Positions 3,920-41,721 of a stretch of 64,000 nt of DNA are shown here, piece by piece. The notes under the pieces are model-generated. The model had not been told where the DNA came from and searched no databases. It was given only the letters and a program-made list of their open reading frames with translations. The stretch comes from Schizochytrium sp. TIO01 (lineage: Eukaryota; Sar; Bigyra; Thraustochytrida; Thraustochytriidae). Location: positions 2,155,102 through 2,219,101 of the forward strand of contig SMSO01000025.1 of assembly GCA_004764695.1 (NCBI GenBank), given 5' to 3'. A program made the position numbers and the translations under genes. Numbering within the stretch: the first letter of the stretch is position 1; each line of letters begins with the position of its first letter.

Positions 3920-6900
3920 CTATTGTTGTTGCTGCTGCTGTTGTTGTGGATCCACACAAATGAAAGCCTTGAAACTTTTTATTCTTTGTTTCGCGTACTT
4001 GTCAAGGTGGACTAGCAACTCGAGGACATATAAATGTGCATCTTCGAATTCTTCTTTGGCGTCTTGAGACTCCTCCTTTGGTTTGCAGAAACGAATCGCA
4101 AGATGAAATACAAGTTGCACCCATTGATTAAATGGTACTTCATGCGATTTCAAGGAGCCCGGTGAACCAGGTTTTCGTATACTAGCATCCAAAAAAAGTT
4201 GCAGAAGGTCAGATTTTGAGCAAAATGTAGGACAGATGGAGAAGTCAGTTGCAAAAAGAACCATCTCTTCAACAGTAATAGTTTTCTGTGTCGCTGCCCG
4301 GCCTCGTTTCTCTGCTATCAGCGCATAAAATAAGTATACCATCTTAAGCTGCGACACATTAGCCTGAAGAATCTTCCGAATTGCTCCTGTGGCAAGGCGC
4401 TTAGATTCCTTCTGGTATATTCGACTCCTTTGTTCCACCTCAAGGCCAGCTTGAACGCACGTAGGTACTAGACTCTCTTTGCAGTATGTAAGTGCAGGGC
4501 ATGCCATTTTGACAACTACTCGATCCAGAGACTGTAAAAAGGCCTCAAAGTCCAAGTATTGAGCTTGATCTTTAGATGCCTCGAAGGATGTATCTACAAC
4601 AGCGTCTCTGTCAAACATGGATAGTTTTAACGAACCCGCATCTAGGAGACGTCGTAAACCATCTTTAGGCATACCTTTTGGAGGTGTAGAATATGCACGA
4701 TAAAGAGCATACAAAAGGCTATTTTCCCCTGATTTCCCAACAACGTCTTCATCCTTGGAGTTAATATATTGCATATGAACAGAGACAAGAACCTGAACTT
4801 GTGGGGTTTGTTGGGATGCTCGTCGAAAAACATCAACACAATCGGAGTCCAAAACAGATGAGGGTTTAATATGGGCTGGTTGGGGAGCGCCCCCTCCAAT
4901 CGAGCGGGAACTTGGCGTTGTTGCTAATTTTCTTACGCTATGACTCGAAATAGAGGCATTCGAAGGTGTTGGAGCACCTGTTGATTTGGAAGCTGCAGCA
5001 ACGCTAGCAGGTACCTTAGTTCGATTCATAATTTGCGCTCGCTTCAGTGCCCTAGCCTTACGCCTTTCTTGCAACTTTTGCTGCAATTTATCGTTCTGTC
5101 TCATTCGCTCAGAACTTAGCAAAGATGCTAGTTTCTTTACTTCCTGCCCATGTTCAGCAAGAATCTCAGCCTTTTCCTTTTCTTTTTCTTGTTTCTCATT
5201 CGCCGATTCGATCTGCTCTACTAATTTTGCCGTTTGTTCAGCTGTAGCTTTCATTTTCTCTTCGAATTCTTTACGTAATTTTTCTGCAATTTCCGCTGCA
5301 GCTTCCGCTTTAACAGATTCTTTTAAGGCCTCAAGCTCTTCAGTGCGACCCCTCATACTAATCACCATTTCTTGAGCCTCTGATTCTGCATGTTGCCTAA
5401 ACTGCTCTTCTTCTTCACGTTGCAGACGAAGTCGTTCCTCCTCTGCATCGGCAGGTAGTTCCCATTCACATTCTCCAGATTCGTTATTATAGTAAAATAC
5501 ATCGCCTGTTACTGGATCTTCACATTCGCTCCAGCTTAATATCTGCTTTCGAACAAAAGCACGTTGGCGAATTTGTTCTGCCTCACTAATCTCCGCACCT
5601 TCATCTTCAACGCTAAATCCAAAACCAGTATCTTCTCCGGCAGGGAGTTCGTCTTGGAGTCCAGCAGGCACCTCCCATGAAGATTCTCCAGTAATTGCAT
5701 TCCAATAAAAGGGTTCACCAGTTTCTTTGTCAATAAACTGTGCCCATTCACCGCGCCAGTCCAATATCTGACCATCTTGCCGCCGCGTACTCCATGGAGT
5801 ACTTGCACGATCCTCTTGATTACTTTCCTCTATGGGATGATTAAATGCTTCCCAAGACTCCTCATTTGCGCCAATACCGGTATTGAGATGGAGAAAAGAA
5901 GCTCTCATACTACCGTCTAGCATTGGCAAACCTGTAAAATCCTGATACGTTTGGGCTGATTGAGGCCTCATTGAACCAAAATAGTTTCGTCCTAAATCAA
6001 AGCCTGCTGCAGTCTGTGGTCTGCCATTGAAAAAACCCCCGTTGTTGTCGTATGGCAAATTTTCGAACTGCTGTTGCGACCATACTAGTGTGGCAGCACG
6101 TTCATATTGAGACTTGTACAATGTATTCATAAGGTCATCAATGTATTTAGCGCATTCTTCTTGCCCATTCAAGCTAGCAAGATCCTTTGCAGTATACCCT
6201 TGATGGTTGGCGAGTCGAATAAGCTCAAGATCAAGAAAGCCTTTAAACGCTTTAATGCATTCTAAACTACCATTACAAGCAGCAGCATGCAATGCGGAAT
6301 CGCCATAGCTATCTTGAATAAGCAGCATTTTATGGATGTCGCATAATGGGTTATCCAAAATTTCTGTAACAATATGTTTTTTGTTGGTTGCGCAAGCTGT
6401 AAACAAAGGAACTCTACCGTGCTCATCTATTGCAAACAAATCCCCGTGTGCATCCATAAGCATCTTGCACGATGCTGTGCAACTGCATACGTGAAGAGGA
6501 GAAAACCCTTTGTTGTTGCGGATATTGACATCAATCTCTGGTTGCTGCAATAACAGATTCAGCGTAGCTTGATGACCGTAGTATGATGCCACGTGCAAAG
6601 GTCGATCTCCTTCGGAGTCACCAAGATTTAGTAAATCTGGGCGTCTCTGTAGTAGCTCTGCACAACATTCTACATGATTTTGCGCAGCTGCGTAGAACAG
6701 TGGAGTTCTTCCAGATGTGTCAAAGGCTGTAAACCGAAAATTCCTTTCTAAGGCACGCTTCAGGACCTGTAAGTTTCCTTCGTGAGCAGCAATATGAACA
6801 CCAAATCGGTCATCGTAGAGCTCATCGTTATCGCCTTCGTCATAAACCTCACCATTGTATGCATATGTATCGTCTGCAAGTGTTGAATTTCCATTAGTTG

Positions 6901-7186
6901 TATCATATGTTGCCGCTTGGGTTGCTCCTTGTTGAGTGTAAGCATAGTCTTGCGTGAAAGGGTGCGAGGCTTGGCTACCACCACGAGGCGAAACAGGGGG
7001 TAATGACTCCTCGTCTGCTTTCATTTCTGTTAGAACCTGTCCTGGCTGGAAGCCTGGGCGCATCAACTTTTCGAATTCATCATTTCGCCCACCTCGTGAA
7101 GACTTCGGCCTTGGCCGAGGTGCCGCCTCGCTAGAAGTAGGGTGCGAACCATCGTCACCCTCACCATCGCTTGGTGTATTGCCCAT
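3920..7186 (-). CDS. Ankyrin-repeat, tandem WW, coiled-coil scaffold protein
   Basis: The gene is one exon of 1088 residues. The start MGNTPS fits an N-myristoylation signal (Gly2, Ser6), so membrane anchoring is likely. Residues about 126-350 are ankyrin repeats with the usual TPLFYAA, PLHVASYYGH and ALHAAACNG cores. Two WW domains follow: one at about 480-506 (Trp, then FYWN, then WEVP), the other at 551-579 (Trp, FYYN, WELP). From about 580 to 720 there is a highly charged Glu/Lys/Gln coiled coil, then a basic stretch and a Ser-rich linker. Residues about 790-1075 are a helical region with hydrophobic helices and loosely EF-hand-like spacing, which I do not recognise. The protein ends in a Gln run coded by mixed CAG/CAA. 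WW domains bind proline-rich ligands and ankyrins bind proteins, so a scaffold role is inferred; no enzyme motif is visible. No ortholog can be named. Confidence 0.85.
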   Translation of the reverse strand: MGNTPSDGEGDDGSHPTSSEAAPRPRPKSSRGGRNDEFEKLMRPGFQPGQVLTEMKADEESLPPVSPRGGSQASHPFTQDYAYTQQGATQAATYDTTNGNSTLADDTYAYNGEVYDEGDNDELYDDRFGVHIAAHEGNLQVLKRALERNFRFTAFDTSGRTPLFYAAAQNHVECCAELLQRRPDLLNLGDSEGDRPLHVASYYGHQATLNLLLQQPEIDVNIRNNKGFSPLHVCSCTASCKMLMDAHGDLFAIDEHGRVPLFTACATNKKHIVTEILDNPLCDIHKMLLIQDSYGDSALHAAACNGSLECIKAFKGFLDLELIRLANHQGYTAKDLASLNGQEECAKYIDDLMNTLYKSQYERAATLVWSQQQFENLPYDNNGGFFNGRPQTAAGFDLGRNYFGSMRPQSAQTYQDFTGLPMLDGSMRASFLHLNTGIGANEESWEAFNHPIEESNQEDRASTPWSTRRQDGQILDWRGEWAQFIDKETGEPFYWNAITGESSWEVPAGLQDELPAGEDTGFGFSVEDEGAEISEAEQIRQRAFVRKQILSWSECEDPVTGDVFYYNNESGECEWELPADAEEERLRLQREEEEQFRQHAESEAQEMVISMRGRTEELEALKESVKAEAAAEIAEKLRKEFEEKMKATAEQTAKLVEQIESANEKQEKEKEKAEILAEHGQEVKKLASLLSSERMRQNDKLQQKLQERRKARALKRAQIMNRTKVPASVAAASKSTGAPTPSNASISSHSVRKLATTPSSRSIGGGAPQPAHIKPSSVLDSDCVDVFRRASQQTPQVQVLVSVHMQYINSKDEDVVGKSGENSLLYALYRAYSTPPKGMPKDGLRRLLDAGSLKLSMFDRDAVVDTSFEASKDQAQYLDFEAFLQSLDRVVVKMACPALTYCKESLVPTCVQAGLEVEQRSRIYQKESKRLATGAIRKILQANVSQLKMVYLFYALIAEKRGRAATQKTITVEEMVLFATDFSICPTFCSKSDLLQLFLDASIRKPGSPGSLKSHEVPFNQWVQLVFHLAIRFCKPKEESQDAKEEFEDAHLYVLELLVHLDKYAKQRIKSFKAFICVDPQQQQQQQQ

Positions 7187-8174
7187 AATACTCCTCGTGC
7201 CCTCTTGTGAAGACTATGTATAGTACGGTGATATAGTGTACGAAGGCACTTCAAAAGGTTGATCACCCAGCGCAGGCGAAGGCCCGCGCTTGGTGCCTTC
7301 GGCAGGAATTGTAGCTCTTTTCAATTCAATTAGAATCAGATGCACCTGGGTCAATGCTGTTGTGCCTCAGCTGGCTGTGTGCATTTTTTTCGAACTCACT
7401 TCGCTTTGATACTATTATGAGGTCAAAGTTGGGAACCTCATTTAATTTGAGAACATGACCTTGATGAATTGGTTATTGTAGTCAGGAAAACATTTCTTTT
7501 AACTTGATATCATTTTATTCTATCCACCAGGGGTTTCTGCTCCAGAAAACCAAGCTAGAGAAGAGAAGCTATTGCAAACATCTTTATGCCTCAAACATTT
7601 TCTTTTCTGGTTTTCGAGATATCTTTGTATAAAAGAATGCTAGCATGAGCCGAAATATAGAGATGGGTTGTAAAATGCACTTGAAAAAAGATAAATAATA
7701 AATAAAATTAGAAAGACTTCGCTTGTATGGGGTGTGTGCTATACTTCTAGCTAGCATAAGAGTATAATAGCGAAAAGGAAGAGATCCGTTCAATCCTCTG
7801 TGCGCGTTGCTGACTCTCTATGGATGTTAAAACCAGGTTTAAAAAAAGTATCGAAGTCAATCATATAGAGAACAACTCACAATTGTTCAATTTGCCATTA
7901 GAGATAAGAAATAAAGAAAAATTCAAGGTGAAGTGAAAGAAGCACCTATACGTTTTGGGCTTTGTGTAAAACAATGAATGAAGGAGAATAAAGTTTGATC
8001 CATGCGCACCCATTGCGACTAGGCCCTTAATCTTGTACGAACAGAAATTGAAAGAAAAAATCTGAATAGATCAATGCCCAAGAGTTCGGCAAATACCTGG
8101 AGTCTTAGGGAAAACAAAAGTTCAGAAAAAAAAAAAAAATTATAAGCAGCAGAGTATGTCCGTGTCAATGTTGT
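7187..8174. other. Intergenic, no gene seen
   Basis: About 990 bp lie upstream of the ankyrin/WW start. The first 150 bp are less AT-rich and should hold its promoter. The rest is AT-rich with an A run of about 14 at 8125-8140. I see no open frame with protein-like composition. Confidence 0.55.
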
Positions 8175-17100: not shown

Positions 17101-19427
17101 CTAAGCATCTGAACTTTCAGAGCTTTCTGAATCAACGTCTTCCAATGACAGAAGTCCTAGTTCCTCACTTGGATCTGACAGTTTCTTAAGAGATGTAGAA
17201 GCGTCCGGGGTTATACCGTAGAGCTCATTATCAATTCGCTCCTTGTCTAGCTGATGCCTACGGAGAAGCTCAACAGAGTCAGTGCATAGACTACGCGTAA
17301 CAATGTGGCGCACGTTTTTAGGCAATTTACGAGCTTTTTCACGCCAATGAACCTCTTCCAAAGGAATCTGTGCCCTTCGCTTATGGTTATGCTTCGGGCC
17401 ATATGCATGCAAAATCATATCACAGTCTGCACAATATTCTGCGTTGCATGAGACACAGCGAATTGTGGCTTCATTCTTACAAGATGGATCTTCGCACCAG
17501 CCTTCGCTATTAAGCAGGTATGGTTCAGCCCAAAGAGTGTCTTGTGTTGCCGGGCAATGAAAGTAAAACTGCTTGCTCTCTTGATCCAATATTTTCTGCC
17601 ATTGCCAATCGCGCACAAGTTTATCGTCTACCTCACGAAGGAGCAGAAATTTTTTATATAAATAACCAACTTTCTCTACATGTGCATCGTTGCGATCTTT
17701 GATAATCTCTGCGATTAAGGTGTTCTGGTCGCAAGCCTTACGAGCAATATATTCGTTTCTCGCTCTCTCTTCACCAGCTTGTCGTGCTTTCTTTGTAATC
17801 ATACCCAATCGATTAGTGCTGTTCTCGTCGCGGAGAGCATGCTCACCACCAACAATTCGAAGGTGATCTCGACCTTCCGGTGTTCTGAAAAAGGCTCTCG
17901 CTTCTTCTTCCACTAAAGCAATCGCTTGTACATATAGTTGCTTCTCGGCTTCATCAATACATTCTTTGCCGACTTTTTCAAGTTTATTGACAGCATTTTG
18001 AAAATCTTGTTTTGCTTTAGCCGCGGCTTGGGCGAGAACCTCATTCTCGGCAAGTTGCTCTTCCTCTTGAGACGCGAAGATTTCCATACTTTTCTGTTCA
18101 TAGGCTTCTACTGCTCTTAGATAAGCAACCTGACATCGTTTAACCAATTTGAGGGTATTTGATGCGTCTTCCCGCGTTGCAGTGCGTTTAATTGTTTCGT
18201 TGAATTCATAGATGTTTCCCTCTGAATCTGCTTCACTTTCCTCCAGAATTGCCGGGTTCAGGCCACTGATGAGCTTCTTCTGTGTATTGAGGCTAGAACT
18301 ATCTTCAACAGAGCGCGATAGTAGACCGCTACCAAGACTTGATGACTTGATGCCACCCACAATAGATCCATCCAATGGAGATACACTTGGAACGAAATCC
18401 GGGACAACACGACCTCCTGCAAGAGCACTGTTGCTAGAAACTTGAGAAAGTCGCATGGTTTTCTGTTTTTCCACTATATCCCGGCGTTTTCGTAAGAGGA
18501 TATTATCCGTGGGTTCAAGCTCACCAAACGTTTCAGTACGTAGCTTCGTTCGAGCTTCCCAGAAGTTTAATCCCAACAAGCGATTGCGTAAGTTCGCTTG
18601 CACTTGAACAACTGGGCGTAGTAAAGACTCATGTTTTTCTGCGAATACTGTAAAATCCTGTAGGTTCATTTCCTCAGTAATTTCAGAGACTATTGCTTGC
18701 ATACTAGCAGGTGTCTCAGGTGAATTGTGGACCATACGTACGAGCGCGTCGCATTGGTATTTGTTGATTGTCATTTTGTGGTCAACATCAAAAATATCCA
18801 TCGAATACTTGCACAATCTTGTAAAGTTAAGAGTACAAAAGTTCCAAACACCGACAACAAATTCTTCAAAACTAAGATTCTCGCTTCCGTCAAGGTCAAA
18901 TTCACCAAACAGTCGATCAACAAATTTTGATCTTGTGATGCCATAGAAGTTGTAGAATTCTTCGAGTCCAATCCCGCCCGAGCCACTAAGGTATAATAAT
19001 ATCCAGAAGTTAGTTAAAGTTCCAGACCAGGGCCTCACTTCTTCTATACATTTGAACTTACTCTTGATCCAAGTCAACAAAGGTTTGGAATAGTCGGAGA
19101 CCAATGTTTCCATTCGAATCATCCTTCTTTGACAAACTTATTACTATTCATTCCATTAATTTAAACTGTTAGGTTCATTTTCTACATACTATGCATGCGT
19201 CTACAACTTACGTTGAATGCTCTCAAGAGTTTCCATAAGACCATTTTCAACTTTGAGCGTGTAGAACTCTTTCAGAGTCATGCTCTGGGATCAAAGTCGT
19301 GAGTTAGCCTTGTAAGTTGATGTCTACATATCAATACAGTTTGGCTTTGTGTATCGAGTGGGTTCCAGATTCTAACGCAATATTATCATGGCACTAAACT
19401 TACCCCCATATACGGCCGCCATGGCAT
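17101..19427 (-). CDS. EF-hand, coiled-coil, WW, B-box protein (four exons)
   Basis: The model is 19404-19427, 19213-19285, 19062-19143 and 17101-18985, giving 687 residues. The three introns have GT-AG ends and lengths of about 118, 69 and 76 nt. Splicing the last intron restores an EF-hand: VDLDQ joins to DGSGGIGLEEF, a perfect calcium loop. A second loop, FDLDGSENLSFEEF, follows about 30 residues later. The frame also stays open through that intron to an ATG near 19122, but that start would destroy the first loop. Residues after about 330 form a charged coiled coil. Near residues 530-565 a WW-like segment (Trp...FYFHC...LWAEP) is followed directly by a B-box zinc finger, CEDPSC, CVSC, CADCD, H and H. 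The domains suggest a calcium-responsive scaffold, but no ortholog is named. The very first 8-codon exon (MPWRPYMG) is the least certain; translation could start at the Met at 19282. Confidence 0.82.
18986..19061 (-). other. Intron 3 of the EF-hand/B-box gene
   Basis: The donor reads GTAAGT and the acceptor ACCTTAG. Removal joins codon GA|T (Asp) and completes the calcium-binding loop DQDGSGGIGLEEF. This is the strongest direct evidence for an intron in the window. Confidence 0.85.
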
Positions 19428-19998: not shown

Positions 19999-22900
19999 AT
20001 GCGTATCCAAAGGCAAGGTGGCTTCCAAGCCTTCGAGGCACCTTCATTACATGCAAATTCTCAAGAAGACTCATGCTCGTCGCGCTGGCAGGCGGACGGA
20101 AGGGGTGCCGATGGCAATGCTCGAATCAAAGAGTTGAGTCGATTGAATAGATCAGAGGAGGCACTTGCACTTCTTCGAAAACAATTCCAGATCTACAAAG
20201 CATCGCAAGAGCTACCAAACCATCTTAACCTCATGGGGATCTTTCATGAAGGGCCTCTTGTGCAGAAACGCGAAGAAGAAGCCAAGGTAGTAGTTGAGCA
20301 GGAGCTTCTGGGAGATGTTGGGGAGACCCCAGTCCTAGGTGGGCTTCCCCACAAACTCTTGAATGAGCTTTTAGAGTGGCTTTCTGGCAAAGACCTGCTT
20401 GCAATGGGAGCTACGAGCTTTGGTACGTCACGACATTTGGAATGATGGATAATTTACAAGGCAGCTAGCTTCTTGATTTACGAAACTTGCTTTGCGGAAA
20501 AAGTGATTCCAGCAAAATGAAAGAACCGAGGAACTAACCTTAAACATTGCGATATACACGATTCTATGATTTGTATGCTGCTATTATGAATGCTATGCAT
20601 AATTTAGGTTTAAATGTGTTCTGCAATGAGGAGCCATTATGGATGGCCCTTTGCCTACGTGACTTTAAAGGGGCCATACAGCGTGATGGGACATGGAAAT
20701 TGACCTGGGTGCTTACGAAGGGCCTCGTGTGGCGTGGGAATCCTTATCTTCGGCTGAAAAATTACAACCAGAATCCCCAGGACCAAGTGTTTTATAATAT
20801 TTCTCGTCCAGCATTTCGTTCAACATTTCTCAGCAACCGGTATTACTGCTGCCATGTTAATTTAAACGGGTTTTATCCTACAGAGGAACGCATTGAGCGC
20901 GTGCATATTTCTGATCGCGAGCGACTAAATCCTGCAGCATTCACACTCGAGTTTGACCTTCCAAGAAAGCCAGTGGTCATTCAGGGCGCTATTGACTCAT
21001 GGCCTGCAATGAAAAAGTGGTCTATTGAAGACCTTGCTTTACGCTGCGGGGAAAATATCAAATGGAGTGTTTCCCATGCGATCGATGAGGTGCCACAGTT
21101 TGACGTATCTTTAACGCAATACAGCACGTACATGCATAAGCAAACAGATGAAACACCTTTGTACATTTTCGACTCTGGTTTTGGAGAAAAGGTTCCAGAA
21201 ATGCTGCAGGAATATTCTTTGGATACCTTTGGTGGGCTCTTCAAAGAAGATTGGCTTAGCGTTCTTGGGAAAGAAGGTCGCCCGAAGTTCCGCTGGTTTG
21301 TTGCCGGTCCAGCTCGTACTGGTGCTCCATGGCATAAGGATCCTAGCTACACAAGTGCTTGGAATGCTCTGGTGCGCGGTCGCAAGAGATGGGCTCTATA
21401 CCCTCCTGGCAAGACCCCTCCCGGGGTAGGCGTTGCTTACGAGAACGATGAAGATGAATGCCCAGAGGATGTAGCAACGCCCTCAAGCTTGCGTTGGTTC
21501 CTCGACGTCTACCCGAGTCTTTCCTTGGAAGAGCGACCTCTGGAGATTATTCAAGAGGCTGGCGACACAATTTTTGTTCCTGCAGGTTGGTGGCACCTGG
21601 TCCTTAATCTCGAAGATACAGTGAGTGTAACACAAAATTTTGTTAACCAGGCAAATGTGCGTGCGGCAACAATGGAGTTGTGGTCGGACCGTGGTGGGGA
21701 GTTTGTGGAAAATTGGGCACTCAAAATGCAACAGCAAATGCCATCCCTCACCCCACTTATCGACAAGGTCCTTTTGCCTCTTCGAGAGGGTTATCCCAAT
21801 GGCTCGGCATATTCATCATCTTTTCACGATCTAGAAGGATGGGTGGACAAATTGAGCGCAGTTTTAAGGCACCACAAGTTGATATCTGGGCTCAAGAGCG
21901 ACCCACCATTGCATGTAAGTGCCTTCCAGGTGTTGGGGAGGCGCCTGAACCCAACCTTTGAACATTTAGAGTCAGGTCTAGTTATCAAGTTCTTCTCGCA
22001 CTTTGGTCAAGGTGACCTGGATGCAGGGTCCGCCGCAATCGAATCTCCATGGGAACATGACGGTCATGGAGCTTACCGAAGCGAAGTCGGATCATTATTG
22101 CTGTACGATTCAGTGCACCATTCTGGAAATCTCCCAGATAATTTACCTCACCTTGTTGCTCATGGCGAATATTACTCTGAAGGGTATGGCTTGTCTTGGC
22201 GCTGGCCATATGTAATCGAGACGCGAGTTCCAGGGCAGACCTTAGGGAAAGTACGCGAAGCTCTCTTACAAAAAGTTCTTGATCAATCCTCTGCAGCTGC
22301 GTCTGGGGGTGGTTGGAGTGTTCCGAGCGTACCTACAACTCTTGAGTCCCAGTCTCTTGAGGAACATCCTAAAGATCACAGTGCAAGTATGCTGTCTCTT
22401 GCTTCCTGGCTCGGCGCTCGTTTGCGAGTATTGCATGACCTTTCGCAAATCACAGGACCTGGACCTACAGTGCTGTATCAGCATATGGAGTCCTTTACCA
22501 GACTTTTGCAGATCCAGCGCAAATATGCAGTAAGCTCTCATCTACGGAAAGCTCTGTTGCCTGCGCCCCTTTTGGAGAGCATGGCCAATTACATCGATAC
22601 GAACTGGGCAGGCTTGTGCTGCGTCCCAAGCCACGACTACGTCGGCTTGCACGGGGACCTTCAAGAGGAGAACGTGATGGTGCAATGTGATGCTTTGAGT
22701 GAAGTGGCAAAGACCGAGTCATATCTTTTGCAAGTGTGGGGGGGACTTTTGGCAGGTGAGGAAAATTATTTGCATGCTTTGGTCCATCGATTAGTTCATG
22801 TCGACAAGTTGCGCCTCAGTGCATTAATCTTCGTCGATGATCATGATCTTGTAGAGCTCGGAGTCCCCTTTGGTCTGAGAAAGGCTCTCCTGCGAGGCAT

Positions 22901-23372
22901 TGCACAGTTGAGACGAGAGACAGAGCTAGGCCCAGGTGCGTCGCAGGGGGTGGGAGCATGCAGTTCTATCTTCGCGGACCATTACAAAGATTCTTCAGGC
23001 TATTTAGCAGGACAAAATTCAAGCTCAGGAGTAAAATCGGGCAAGGCAGCGATTGATTTTCGTCCTGTTGGTATAATTGATTACGGCGATGCACGTGCTG
23101 GTGATGCGTTATACGATTTTGTGGCAGTTCAAATTAGCACATTTCGCTGTGAATCTGCATCTTGGACAAGATTCATGCAAGCCTATAGATGCGATCACCC
23201 TCATATCCAAGCTCGATTAGCTCAGGGAAGTCGCCTTTCAGACATCATGATGTGCTTTACAATCTTACATCCTTGTGGAGCACTCGAGCTCGCCAAGGAG
23301 TACCGGCCGCAATTATTTTCAGGGACGTTGTCCTGGTCTCTGATTGCTGAGCAACTCTTTCCTTTTGCCTAG
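19999..23372 (+). CDS. F-box + JmjC oxygenase + APH kinase-like protein with inserted SAM-like domain
   Basis: The model joins 19999-20422 to 20608-23372 (GTACGT donor, ATTTAG acceptor, 185 nt) and gives about 1062 residues. The splice joins two halves of an F-box (about 115-165: LPHKLLNELLEWL, then ATSFG, then EEPLWMALCLRDF). The JmjC domain (about 220-500) is close to JMJD6: GAPWHKDP supplies His384 and Asp386, TSAWNALVRGRKRW follows, and GWWHLVLNL supplies His471, the full Fe(II) triad. From about 590 on is an aminoglycoside-phosphotransferase fold with the catalytic HGDLQEENV at about 823 and metal-binding IDYGDA near 966. Between these two motifs sits about 60 residues resembling a SAM domain (VDDHDLVELGVPFG, then RKALLRGIAQL). 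A plant family (Arabidopsis JMJ21) is known to combine F-box, JmjC and APH parts; the SAM insertion is the unusual element. Likely roles are SCF ligase recruitment and protein hydroxylation or demethylation. A residue pair near 50-65 may form a short helical repeat. Confidence 0.9.
20423..20607 (+). other. Intron of the F-box/JmjC gene
   Basis: A 185-nt intron with GTACGT donor and ATTTAG acceptor. It interrupts the F-box after the Phe of ATSF; joined, codon G|GT gives Gly and the frame continues into the F-box helix LNVFCNEEPLWMAL. Reading through would meet stop codons. Confidence 0.85.
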
Positions 23373-38568: not shown

Positions 38569-40212
38569 ATATAAATCCTCCTTGCATTTACTCAACTCTC
38601 TTAACCATACAGATAGACCTTTGCACATTCCCCACGGTCAAATGAAATTCAATCTTCCTCTCTTTTAGTTTTTATTTTCCTTCTCCAAATGTTTCTTGTT
38701 TAATTTAAAACAAAACCAAGCAAATTGTTTGCCCAGCTCTAGTGCTGTTGGATTCACAAAAGGCTCTACTCAGTTTAACAGAAGGGGCAATTTTCTTGTG
38801 TTTTACTCTTAGCAGAAAATTTGACTAATGGAAGCCTCTAACGCAACTTAGCGTGAAGGATCTGCAACTATCGATCAGTGAGCTCAATATAAATGGATAG
38901 CTATGTTCAGAAGTGTTTACTTCAAAGACAAATCAGTAAAATGACCCTAATCTAAACTCCTGCATGTGTATTTATGGCTAATTACTAAATTATTTCACGG
39001 TCTAGCAGATGTCTGAAGGTGTAGTAGCCAGCTTTCAGGGACTTTTCAAAATGATCGTAGGACAATTTGCAGAATAAACTTTCTTCCTTTTCAACGTGAG
39101 AGTATCTAACTAGCTCACTAACGCATTAAAATTGAAAGGAAGGCCGTGTCAACTCTGCTAAAGAGTGCCGCCGTATTAGTCTTAGTAGCGATAAAACTCT
39201 AACACAAGTCCTTCTGTGGTCTCGCTAACGCAATGACGCGGTTGCTTAGAAATCATAAACCTGCACATTTTGCGAAACCTCGAGTTGAGATCCTTTTGAA
39301 AATTCTAAGACCGACACACTGCTTTTAATGTCATTTTGGAAGATGATCCTTACATGTTTTTGACTGCCATCTCTTGGGTGTTAAGTCCGAGGCCAAGAAA
39401 TATACTACAGTTCTAGTTTTCCAAATTAGTTTTTGTTTCCTATTGTGAATGCTATTTCTCTGTTTATGATCATGGATATTTGGGGGATTTCTGTTTGCCT
39501 TGGTAATTTTCTTAAGGCGAATTAACATCATAAGAGATATGACCATTCGTTTCAAAAACAAATGCTATATTTGAAAACTAATTAAAATTCGAGTAATCAC
39601 CTCCTCCTTTCTGAAAAGCAAAATGAAAAGAAGAGAAAAGACTAGTCTCAAATCCGCTCAGTTCACTTAAACAGAAACGTCCCCTAATTCTTTTACATCC
39701 GTCAAGACTAACTGAACCTATATATCAGTTAATACTCGACACGTTACACAGAGTTTGTGACTTCGTCTTGACCCAAGCATAGATGTCACCTTTCTTTAAG
39801 GATCCTGTGCAATCTACATCGTTTTAATTTCTTGCTCCTGACTCGGTATTTAGATAAAAGTTGTCTTATTCAATCTGCATAATGCTTTAGTATCCACACT
39901 ACTTATTCTACTTATTACATGAGCAATCGTAGGAAAATCAGACAGCCGCCAACTTGAAGTATTCCTCAACGTTTGAGGCATACAGCTACCTTTACATTAT
40001 ACTTTGTAAGGCTTGTCTTCTTCTGGGTAATGTTCGCAGAGCAATACATAGCATATGGTAGGACTGCTCATCTACCTAAGTAGGGAGTGAAAATTCGTTT
40101 GAAATATTCGAACATAAAGTTTGGATGGATTGACGCAGTTGACGAGCCACCATTCCTGGTTCTTGGCGCAGAAACCTTTGAGCCTAGAGTTTCCACCAAG
40201 ATAGAAAACGCA
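38569..40212. other. Intergenic, AT-rich
   Basis: The first 100-150 bp should be the 3' UTR of the small protein gene. The remainder shows no credible frame. CTACCTAAGTAGGG at 40073-40086 lies 130 bp before the methyltransferase start. The SET frame stays open upstream of its ATG to about 40087, so an unseen 5' exon or a non-ATG start cannot be excluded. Confidence 0.5.
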
Positions 40213-41721
40213 ATGCAATTCGCAGGAGCAACTGCTGGCGTGGTGTCTCAGGATGCTATTCCTGCTGCTCGACTTTCTTCGCCGCAAATCTTTGCTGATG
40301 CTCCGGTAGAGATGCTCTTTGGCAAGGGCATTATGAGTGGCCAGCCGACAGAGCGTGGACTTTTTGCAACGCAAGATCTACCCGCCGGCTACGTTGTCTT
40401 TGAAGAAAAGCCGCTGGTGGCTGTGCAACTAAACAAGGCCGAATGTGCTGCTTGCGAGCACTGTTCGAAATTCCTCGGCAAACTTAGCAACGCCAAATCT
40501 CTTAGCGTCGATGTGGACCGCGCAGACCTGACTGAAATCGTGCCTTGTGATGGTCTCTGCGGAGAACTTTATTGCAGCGAGACATGTCGTGAGGCCTCTA
40601 TGGAGGCAGGTCATGAGCCTCTTTGCTCTGGGCGTTGTGAGAGCATGGAGGAGCCTTTGATTCACTTCAAGGTTCACGCAATGGAGACTCTTGATGCCTT
40701 CTTGCTTGCTGGTAAAGCATTCGCGCAGGTGCTCGCCAATGCGATGGTAGACTTTAAAAAGGAGGGTGTTCCTTGCTCTCCAGTATGGTACAACATTGAC
40801 CAGTTTGCACCTACCACGGGCACATTGGCAGACACTGAGGAGAACGATGATGAGCGAGCATTTCTTGAGTCGCTCTGCGAGACGTCTTATGATTTCCTCA
40901 TTGGAGCCTTCAAACATTACTTATTTCGCCAGGGTATGGATGCACAAGAAGGCGAGAATCTGTTGCGCAGTTTTACACTATACAGATATTCAAATCTTAT
41001 GCTTAAACTTCGACGCAACTCTTTTGGCATTTCAGTGCCCAACCCGCTAGTTGAGCACGTGTCAGACTCTCAGAAAACTCTTTCTGAAGAGGACCTAGAG
41101 ACCTTGCTCGGTTCTTATGTCGAAGAGCTTCGCCAGGAGGAGCTCCACAATGATTGTGAAACCTGTGATAGTCATGAGGGCCATGACGACGACGAAGACA
41201 AGCACAAGGGGTGTGCTCACGGTGATGACGAGGATTGTGATAGCGATTACCCTGAATATGAGGACGAGCTTAATTACAATGCCAAGGACTCTTCACTTGC
41301 CAAGTCTGACGCTAAGGATGCGCCGAAAAACCCTGGTCCTAAAGATTCAAACAGTGGCGCAAGCGATGACGATGATGACGACGATGACGATGACGATGAC
41401 GAAGAGCTCACTGTGCCTTTTGTGGTAGAGAACATTGAGGATTGGTTTGCACCGGTGGATGGCGAGGCCCTCTTCTCAGGTGCATGCGTCATTAACCACT
41501 CAGCTCAGCCGAATATTCGCATCGAATACGTCGATTGCAACAAATGCCGGGCGGTAACCTTACGTGAGATCCCGTCAGGCACAGAGCTTGTTCATGATTA
41601 TGTCCGTTTTCTGTCAGCTAGCAACAGCGCTGCGTTTAATAACGATGTCAGCTTGGAGGATGCTGCTGAGGAGCGCAAGCATGTTATTGCACAATATGGT
41701 ATTGAGGAATCATTTGAGTAG
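40213..41721 (+). CDS. SMYD-like SET/MYND protein methyltransferase
   Basis: The product has 502 residues from the first ATG (40213). Residues about 35-75 give the SET N-lobe (TERGLFATQDLPAGYVVFEEKPL). Residues about 79-142 form an interrupted MYND-type zinc finger: CAACEHC, then CDGLC, YCSETCREASMEAGH and C. The catalytic SET C-lobe is near 430-475: CVINHSAQPNIRI (the NHSxxPN motif that binds S-adenosylmethionine) then REIPSGTELVHDYV, where the usual catalytic Tyr is in HDY. Between the lobes is a long acidic insert with a His/Asp-rich stretch and 13 consecutive Asp coded by mixed GAT/GAC. SMYD proteins methylate histone or other lysines in nucleus or cytoplasm. The post-SET Cys cluster is not obvious. 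Specific orthology (SMYD2, SMYD5) cannot be set. Confidence 0.85.
   Translation: MQFAGATAGVVSQDAIPAARLSSPQIFADAPVEMLFGKGIMSGQPTERGLFATQDLPAGYVVFEEKPLVAVQLNKAECAACEHCSKFLGKLSNAKSLSVDVDRADLTEIVPCDGLCGELYCSETCREASMEAGHEPLCSGRCESMEEPLIHFKVHAMETLDAFLLAGKAFAQVLANAMVDFKKEGVPCSPVWYNIDQFAPTTGTLADTEENDDERAFLESLCETSYDFLIGAFKHYLFRQGMDAQEGENLLRSFTLYRYSNLMLKLRRNSFGISVPNPLVEHVSDSQKTLSEEDLETLLGSYVEELRQEELHNDCETCDSHEGHDDDEDKHKGCAHGDDEDCDSDYPEYEDELNYNAKDSSLAKSDAKDAPKNPGPKDSNSGASDDDDDDDDDDDDEELTVPFVVENIEDWFAPVDGEALFSGACVINHSAQPNIRIEYVDCNKCRAVTLREIPSGTELVHDYVRFLSASNSAAFNNDVSLEDAAEERKHVIAQYGIEESFE

Follow-up and report, generated by a model that had tools for sequence, protein, structure and literature searches.

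A SAM-like insert between the catalytic loop and the metal-site motif of an APH-type kinase in an F-box/JmjC protein

The gene located at positions 19999–23372 of the plus strand in the window (the whole stretch of 64,000 nucleotides analysed here, C24:2155102–2219101, from a host genome of 64.06 Mb in 37 contigs) raises the question of what kind of segment separates the catalytic loop from the metal-site motif of its kinase. As read from the predicted protein of 1062 residues, the order of domains is F-box, JmjC and aminoglycoside phosphotransferase (APH)-type kinase, the catalytic motifs are present, and the kinase is interrupted by the insert between two of them.

Analysis of the open frames indicates that the gene consists of two exons and one intron. 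A stop codon at 20443–20445 closes the frame begun at 19999, so that the span 19999–23372 is not a single open frame. The second open frame is of a different phase and 941–942 codons long, its exon 2 part being read from 20608. Both frames are joined by a predicted intron of 185 bases (20423–20607, plus strand; GTACGT...TTTAG) which has GT-AG ends and contains stop codons in all three frames. Exon 1 (19999–20422, plus strand) begins at the first ATG downstream of an in-frame stop, is open up to the GTACGT donor and encodes an N-terminal extension and the first part of the F-box. Exon 2 (20608–23372, plus strand) extends for 920 codons without a stop, ends with the stop codon at 23370–23372 and encodes the end of the F-box, the JmjC part and the kinase with its insert. 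The minus strand of the gene region has no open frame of at least 100 codons starting with ATG, GTG or TTG. Unspliced, exon 1 matches the Pfam F-box with an E-value of 0.028 over positions 3–28 only, whereas the spliced piece matches the F-box-like family PF12937 with an E-value of 1.2e-4 over positions 3–47 of 47, and this extension of the match supports the exon junction. The F-box(-like) domain thus split by the intron comprises residues 115–159 (20341–20660, plus strand). An F-box had been proposed in an earlier reading of this DNA (hereafter the sequence-only reading); the match across the splice agrees with it, although its score of 22.2 bits lies just under the cut-off of 24.3.

The JmjC/Cupin_8 region of the JMJD6 type (20919–21690, plus strand, ends approximate) is matched by the Pfam families Cupin_8 (1.5e-18) and JmjC (2.3e-16) as well as by JMJD6 structures (E-values of 7.9e-53 and 4.9e-52), and in the JMJD6 alignment His384, Asp386 and His471 of the HxD...H motif are in place. 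The APH-type kinase region (21978–23369, plus strand, start approximate, interrupted by the insert) is matched in two stretches by PF01636 (E-value 1e-6, 29.2 bits against a cut-off of 23.2). Both the JMJD6-like JmjC domain with its His-Asp-His triad and the APH kinase, as claimed from the letters of the sequence, are above their Pfam cut-offs. The nearest solved kinase structure is the hygromycin-B 7''-O-kinase 6iy9, which phmmer aligns in three collinear pieces with an E-value of 1.4e-6. The NCBIfam model APH_7pp_Ia scores 39.7 bits, far below the family cut-off of 640; the kinship is distant, and therefore a substrate shared with APH(7'')-Ia is not implied. In the 6iy9 alignment, the catalytic loop HGDLQEENV (residues 823–831; 22650–22676, plus strand) is placed, and the metal motif IIDYGDA (residues 964–970; 23073–23093, plus strand) is aligned to GIVDFTD. 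The HGD...N loop and IIDYGDA resemble the usual kinase residues, and the Lys in LVIKFFS and the Glu in YRSEVGS, judged by eye, presumably do so as well.

The insert lies between the second and third of the 6iy9 pieces, where phmmer leaves a gap of 124 residues in the window protein against 3 residues in 6iy9. Taken singly these pieces are weak (E-values of 0.056, 16 and 22), so the support for this placement rests on their collinear order. The distance from the catalytic-loop Asn to the metal-site Asp motif is 135 residues. Among eight other APH loci examined out of 23 matches in the same genome, seven have 14–27 residues from the loop Asn to the next D-motif, a range obtained with a loose motif pattern which the eighth locus, L005, did not fit and which overcounts the loop length in at least the locus L006. 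The sequence-only reading had placed the insert correctly between HGDLQEENV and IDYGDA, and its coordinates and motifs (HGDLQEENV 823–831, VDDHDLV 884–890, RKALLRGIAQL 899–909 and IDYGDA 965–970) hold in the protein, but the length of 124–135 residues is about twice the 60 or so that it had given. The insert is composed of a SAM-like part of about 76 residues (approximately residues 841–916; 22704–22931, plus strand) and a Gly/Ser-rich tail of about 41 residues (22932–23054, plus strand), which has no Pfam match and a coding-like codon use.

Our analysis suggests that a SAM domain is the most likely identity of the former part. When modelled on its own, at moderate confidence (pLDDT 70), the insert shows five helices (model positions 4–17, 24–37, 42–45, 50–56 and 60–78) in SAM order with a long C-terminal helix. 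When this model is used in a Foldseek search, ranks 1–33 of the best 50 rows are all SAM chains and non-SAM chains appear from rank 34; the non-SAM rows given by VIA-align are two of NusA and one of a plant mitoribosome chain. A phmmer search of the PDB with the 80-residue insert returns five sequences under an E-value of 10, of which the top two, the SAM domains of USH1G (0.035) and BICC1 (0.27), are SAM and the other three are not. With a SAM profile built from 15 of the 61 SAM_2 places in the same genome, hmmsearch scores the insert at 10.9 bits, a value reached by 2 of 5000 shuffles (one at 15.4), and among the 805 open pieces from the window exon 2 ranks first, though with an E-value of only 0.67. 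The corresponding hhalign score is 23.65 (probability 46.8%) and is reached by none of 300 shuffles. The best three of 38 hhalign tiles all contain residues 885–910, with the next tile at 15.1. Sequence alignments to SAM domains span 34–49 residues and cover the C-terminal half of the domain only. Profile and prediction together give a SAM-like sequence in the C-terminal half and a predicted SAM fold for the whole.

No SAM family of Pfam was found up to an E-value of 10 for the exon or insert pieces, in a search whose filters discard most weak matches. The insert is likewise absent from the list of 61 places returned by a whole-genome SAM_2 search, and the window protein is unlisted at an E-value of 1 when the same-genome profile is run with default filters on 1988 pieces. 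Because the Pfam cut-off for SAM_1 or SAM_2 is not reached, we class the segment as SAM-like by fold and not as a member of a Pfam SAM family. The SAM character put forward by the sequence-only reading is supported by the predicted five-helix arrangement and the profile shuffles, while the comparison with the Pfam SAM_1 and SAM_2 profiles gave no match; a search by fold returns SAM, a search by Pfam profile does not. On sequence grounds the similarity to known SAM domains appears to be beyond chance, marginal as it is in each single search and with no score that is decisive.

The absence of a Pfam match, the moderate pLDDT and the fact that helical bundles attract many structural matches would all fit a loop, helical or disordered, with no kinship to SAM domains and SAM-like by chance, at a site which merely tolerates long loops. 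Plant proteins of the F-box/JmjC/APH type probably also carry a longer variable stretch at the position of the insert, which points in the same direction. However, sequence and structure searches converge on the same nearest proteins, the SAM domains of USH1G and BICC1, an agreement that is not fully independent because Foldseek also uses sequence. The failure of any shuffle to reach the hhalign score, and the first place of the exon among the open pieces of the window, even at so modest an E-value, also speak against a chance resemblance, which we regard as unlikely.

It could also be argued that all or most of the insert is an intron which happens to be open and stays unspliced in this reading, and that the mature kinase has a short linker. 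The region does contain 54 frame-keeping GT[AG]...[CT]AG pairs of at least 60 bases, and one donor, CAG|GTGAGG at 22756, looks like a consensus site. However, the codon score of 22692–22931 is 0.08 bits/codon in frame, whereas the two remaining forward frames score -0.40 and -0.19, and the actual intron of the gene, unlike the insert, scores -0.24. The SAM and tail parts (0.08 and 0.09) compare with 0.14 for the JmjC part, -0.01 just before the insert and 0.12 after it. This measure is weak, since in one 40-codon window of the insert, 22770–22889, an antisense frame scores 0.07 against 0.06 in frame. An in-frame stop is lacking in only 249 of 20000 shuffles of 22756–23010 and in 19 of 20000 shuffles of 22680–23054, and the SAM-like stretch would itself fall within the candidate intron. 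Codon use and the open frame thus make a retained intron quite improbable, in line with the sequence-only reading, which had treated the segment as coding. Splicing confined to the tail, with a start at 22936 for instance, may occur and would leave the SAM core intact. An error at the level of the whole gene, with a pseudogene or two genes read as one, seems even more remote. In its favour are the change of frame from exon 1 to exon 2 and a gene model predicted from sequence. Against it, a single GT-AG intron suffices for the F-box-like match to run full length through the junction, the 920 codons of exon 2 are free of stops and have a positive in-frame codon score in 35 of 44 windows, and plant JMJD6-class proteins are described as combining these same domains (PMC3567966, PMC10178440).

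Comparison with known proteins suggests that the three-domain architecture is already known, as had been stated from the sequence, and that the SAM insertion in the kinase is a variation on it. The F-box and JmjC domains are conserved in JMJD6s in a tomato survey, and one of its two JMJD6 clades has a C-terminal APH domain, PF01636 (PMC3567966); the three domains occur together in JMJD6-class proteins of several plants (PMC3567966, PMC10178440); and AT1G78280 is named JMJD6B in a table of a strawberry paper (PMC4822149). Plant JMJD6-class proteins of the AT1G78280 type therefore have the same three domains as the window protein, but the portions available to us, compared by description, mention no SAM domain (PMC3567966, PMC10178440, PMC4822149). 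JMJD6-like proteins with F-boxes are described from plants, protists and fungi, and animal JMJD6 is given as 'JmjC only', in an older study (PMC2453528). JMJD6 shares with the window protein the JmjC domain, the iron-binding motif and flanking residues being aligned at the E-value of 7.9e-53, but unlike it has neither an APH kinase nor a SAM domain. APH(7'')-Ia (6iy9) is collinear with the window kinase on both sides of the insert, but has 3 residues where the window protein has about 124. The name JMJ21 we take to denote the AT1G78280-type protein. The SAM domains of USH1G (SANS) and BICC1 are 24–25% identical to the insert over the matched stretch; they are modules of scaffold or RNA-binding proteins and are not known to be nested in a catalytic fold. 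Among the matches listed from the open-licence literature, as far as their accessible text goes, neither an APH kinase with an internal SAM domain nor an F-box/JmjC/APH protein with a SAM domain was found, and the SAM-bearing kinases among them included Ack1, the Eph receptors and a pseudokinase of Plasmodium (PMC6544628).

In its own genome, the exon 2 protein finds ten places besides itself, and all ten matches fall in the JmjC part; the 80-residue insert finds only itself. The three closest places are L025, L026 and L027, and the open frame of L026 contains JmjC only. L025:1015–2460 (plus strand, C13) is an F-box and JmjC paralogue with no APH match in its open frame. L027:661–2697 (minus strand, C13) is an unusual JmjC fusion, in which a 679-codon frame combines a JMJD6-like JmjC domain with Gly_transf_sug (DXD motif, 9.6e-10). 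The genome is rich in SAM domains, with frames of 2424, 2109 and 1557 codons having several SAM_2 matches each; multi-SAM_2 frames are located at C33:4367424–4373660 and C7:528540–541398.

Scans of viral and prokaryotic sequences returned no orthologue of the window protein, in collections that may omit records of its own or a very near genome. In viral contigs, two stretches fitted the pattern in a protein scan and 18 were found with the JmjC alignment, none of them confirmed, and a degenerate DNA pattern of the JmjC signature had no match. The kinase gave 17 stretches in genome contigs, none confirmed, and nothing in plasmids by tblastn at an E-value of 0.01. The JmjC alignment yielded 29 confirmed loci from 161 stretches of genome contigs, all 29 bacterial; identity of the best segment is 21–27% in 27 of them, 28% in one and 53% over 30 residues in one. 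On these loci the APH and SAM profiles gave one weak APH match (L037, E-value 0.015) and no SAM match, in a scan that is insensitive because neither profile listed the window protein itself at an E-value of 1.

Taken together, we consider it probable, with good confidence, that the gene encodes one polypeptide of the plant F-box/JmjC/APH type, with a JMJD6-like 2-oxoglutarate oxygenase, in which a SAM domain with a flexible tail separates the catalytic loop of the kinase from the strand of the metal-site Asp, the SAM domain presumably serving in docking or self-association. The insert would be situated at the turn that connects the strands of the catalytic loop and of the metal site, exposed at the C-lobe surface, where the kinase could still fold and may remain active. 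The SAM domain would then dock a partner or associate with itself, and such contacts could gather or position the enzyme and, via the F-box, an SCF-type ubiquitin ligase. Docking or oligomerisation, from a loop exposed on the kinase, is the most likely role of the SAM domain. In the model, the region of helix 4 carries a net charge of -4 and that of helix 5 one of +3; these opposite charges would suit head-to-tail SAM contacts, which we take as a hint only. Owing to its place between the catalytic loop and the Asp that binds the metal, the SAM domain might also gate the kinase through its binding state. Self-association or binding of a partner SAM would in that case switch the kinase allosterically and link, within one protein, phosphotransfer and 2-oxoglutarate oxygenation to the assembly of a scaffold and the recruitment of a ubiquitin ligase, a proposal that we consider unlikely. 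To our knowledge, no substrate has been established for the kinase part of F-box/JmjC/APH proteins, and a recruiting module within the kinase as envisaged in the docking role would offer a handle for finding partners. It would also allow one to ask, in a natural system, whether regulation acts through the loop that separates the catalytic motif from the metal motif. If true, the SAM domain would be nested within a catalytic fold instead of adjoining it.

Three other genes of the window are worth recording. The neighbouring gene at 17101–19122 (minus strand) has EF-hand and B-box matches under their cut-offs, and the one at 3923–7213 (minus strand) contains ankyrin repeats and two WW stretches. 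The JmjC gene also shares the window with a gene for a SET-domain protein (E-value 2.5e-10) at 40084–41718 (plus strand).
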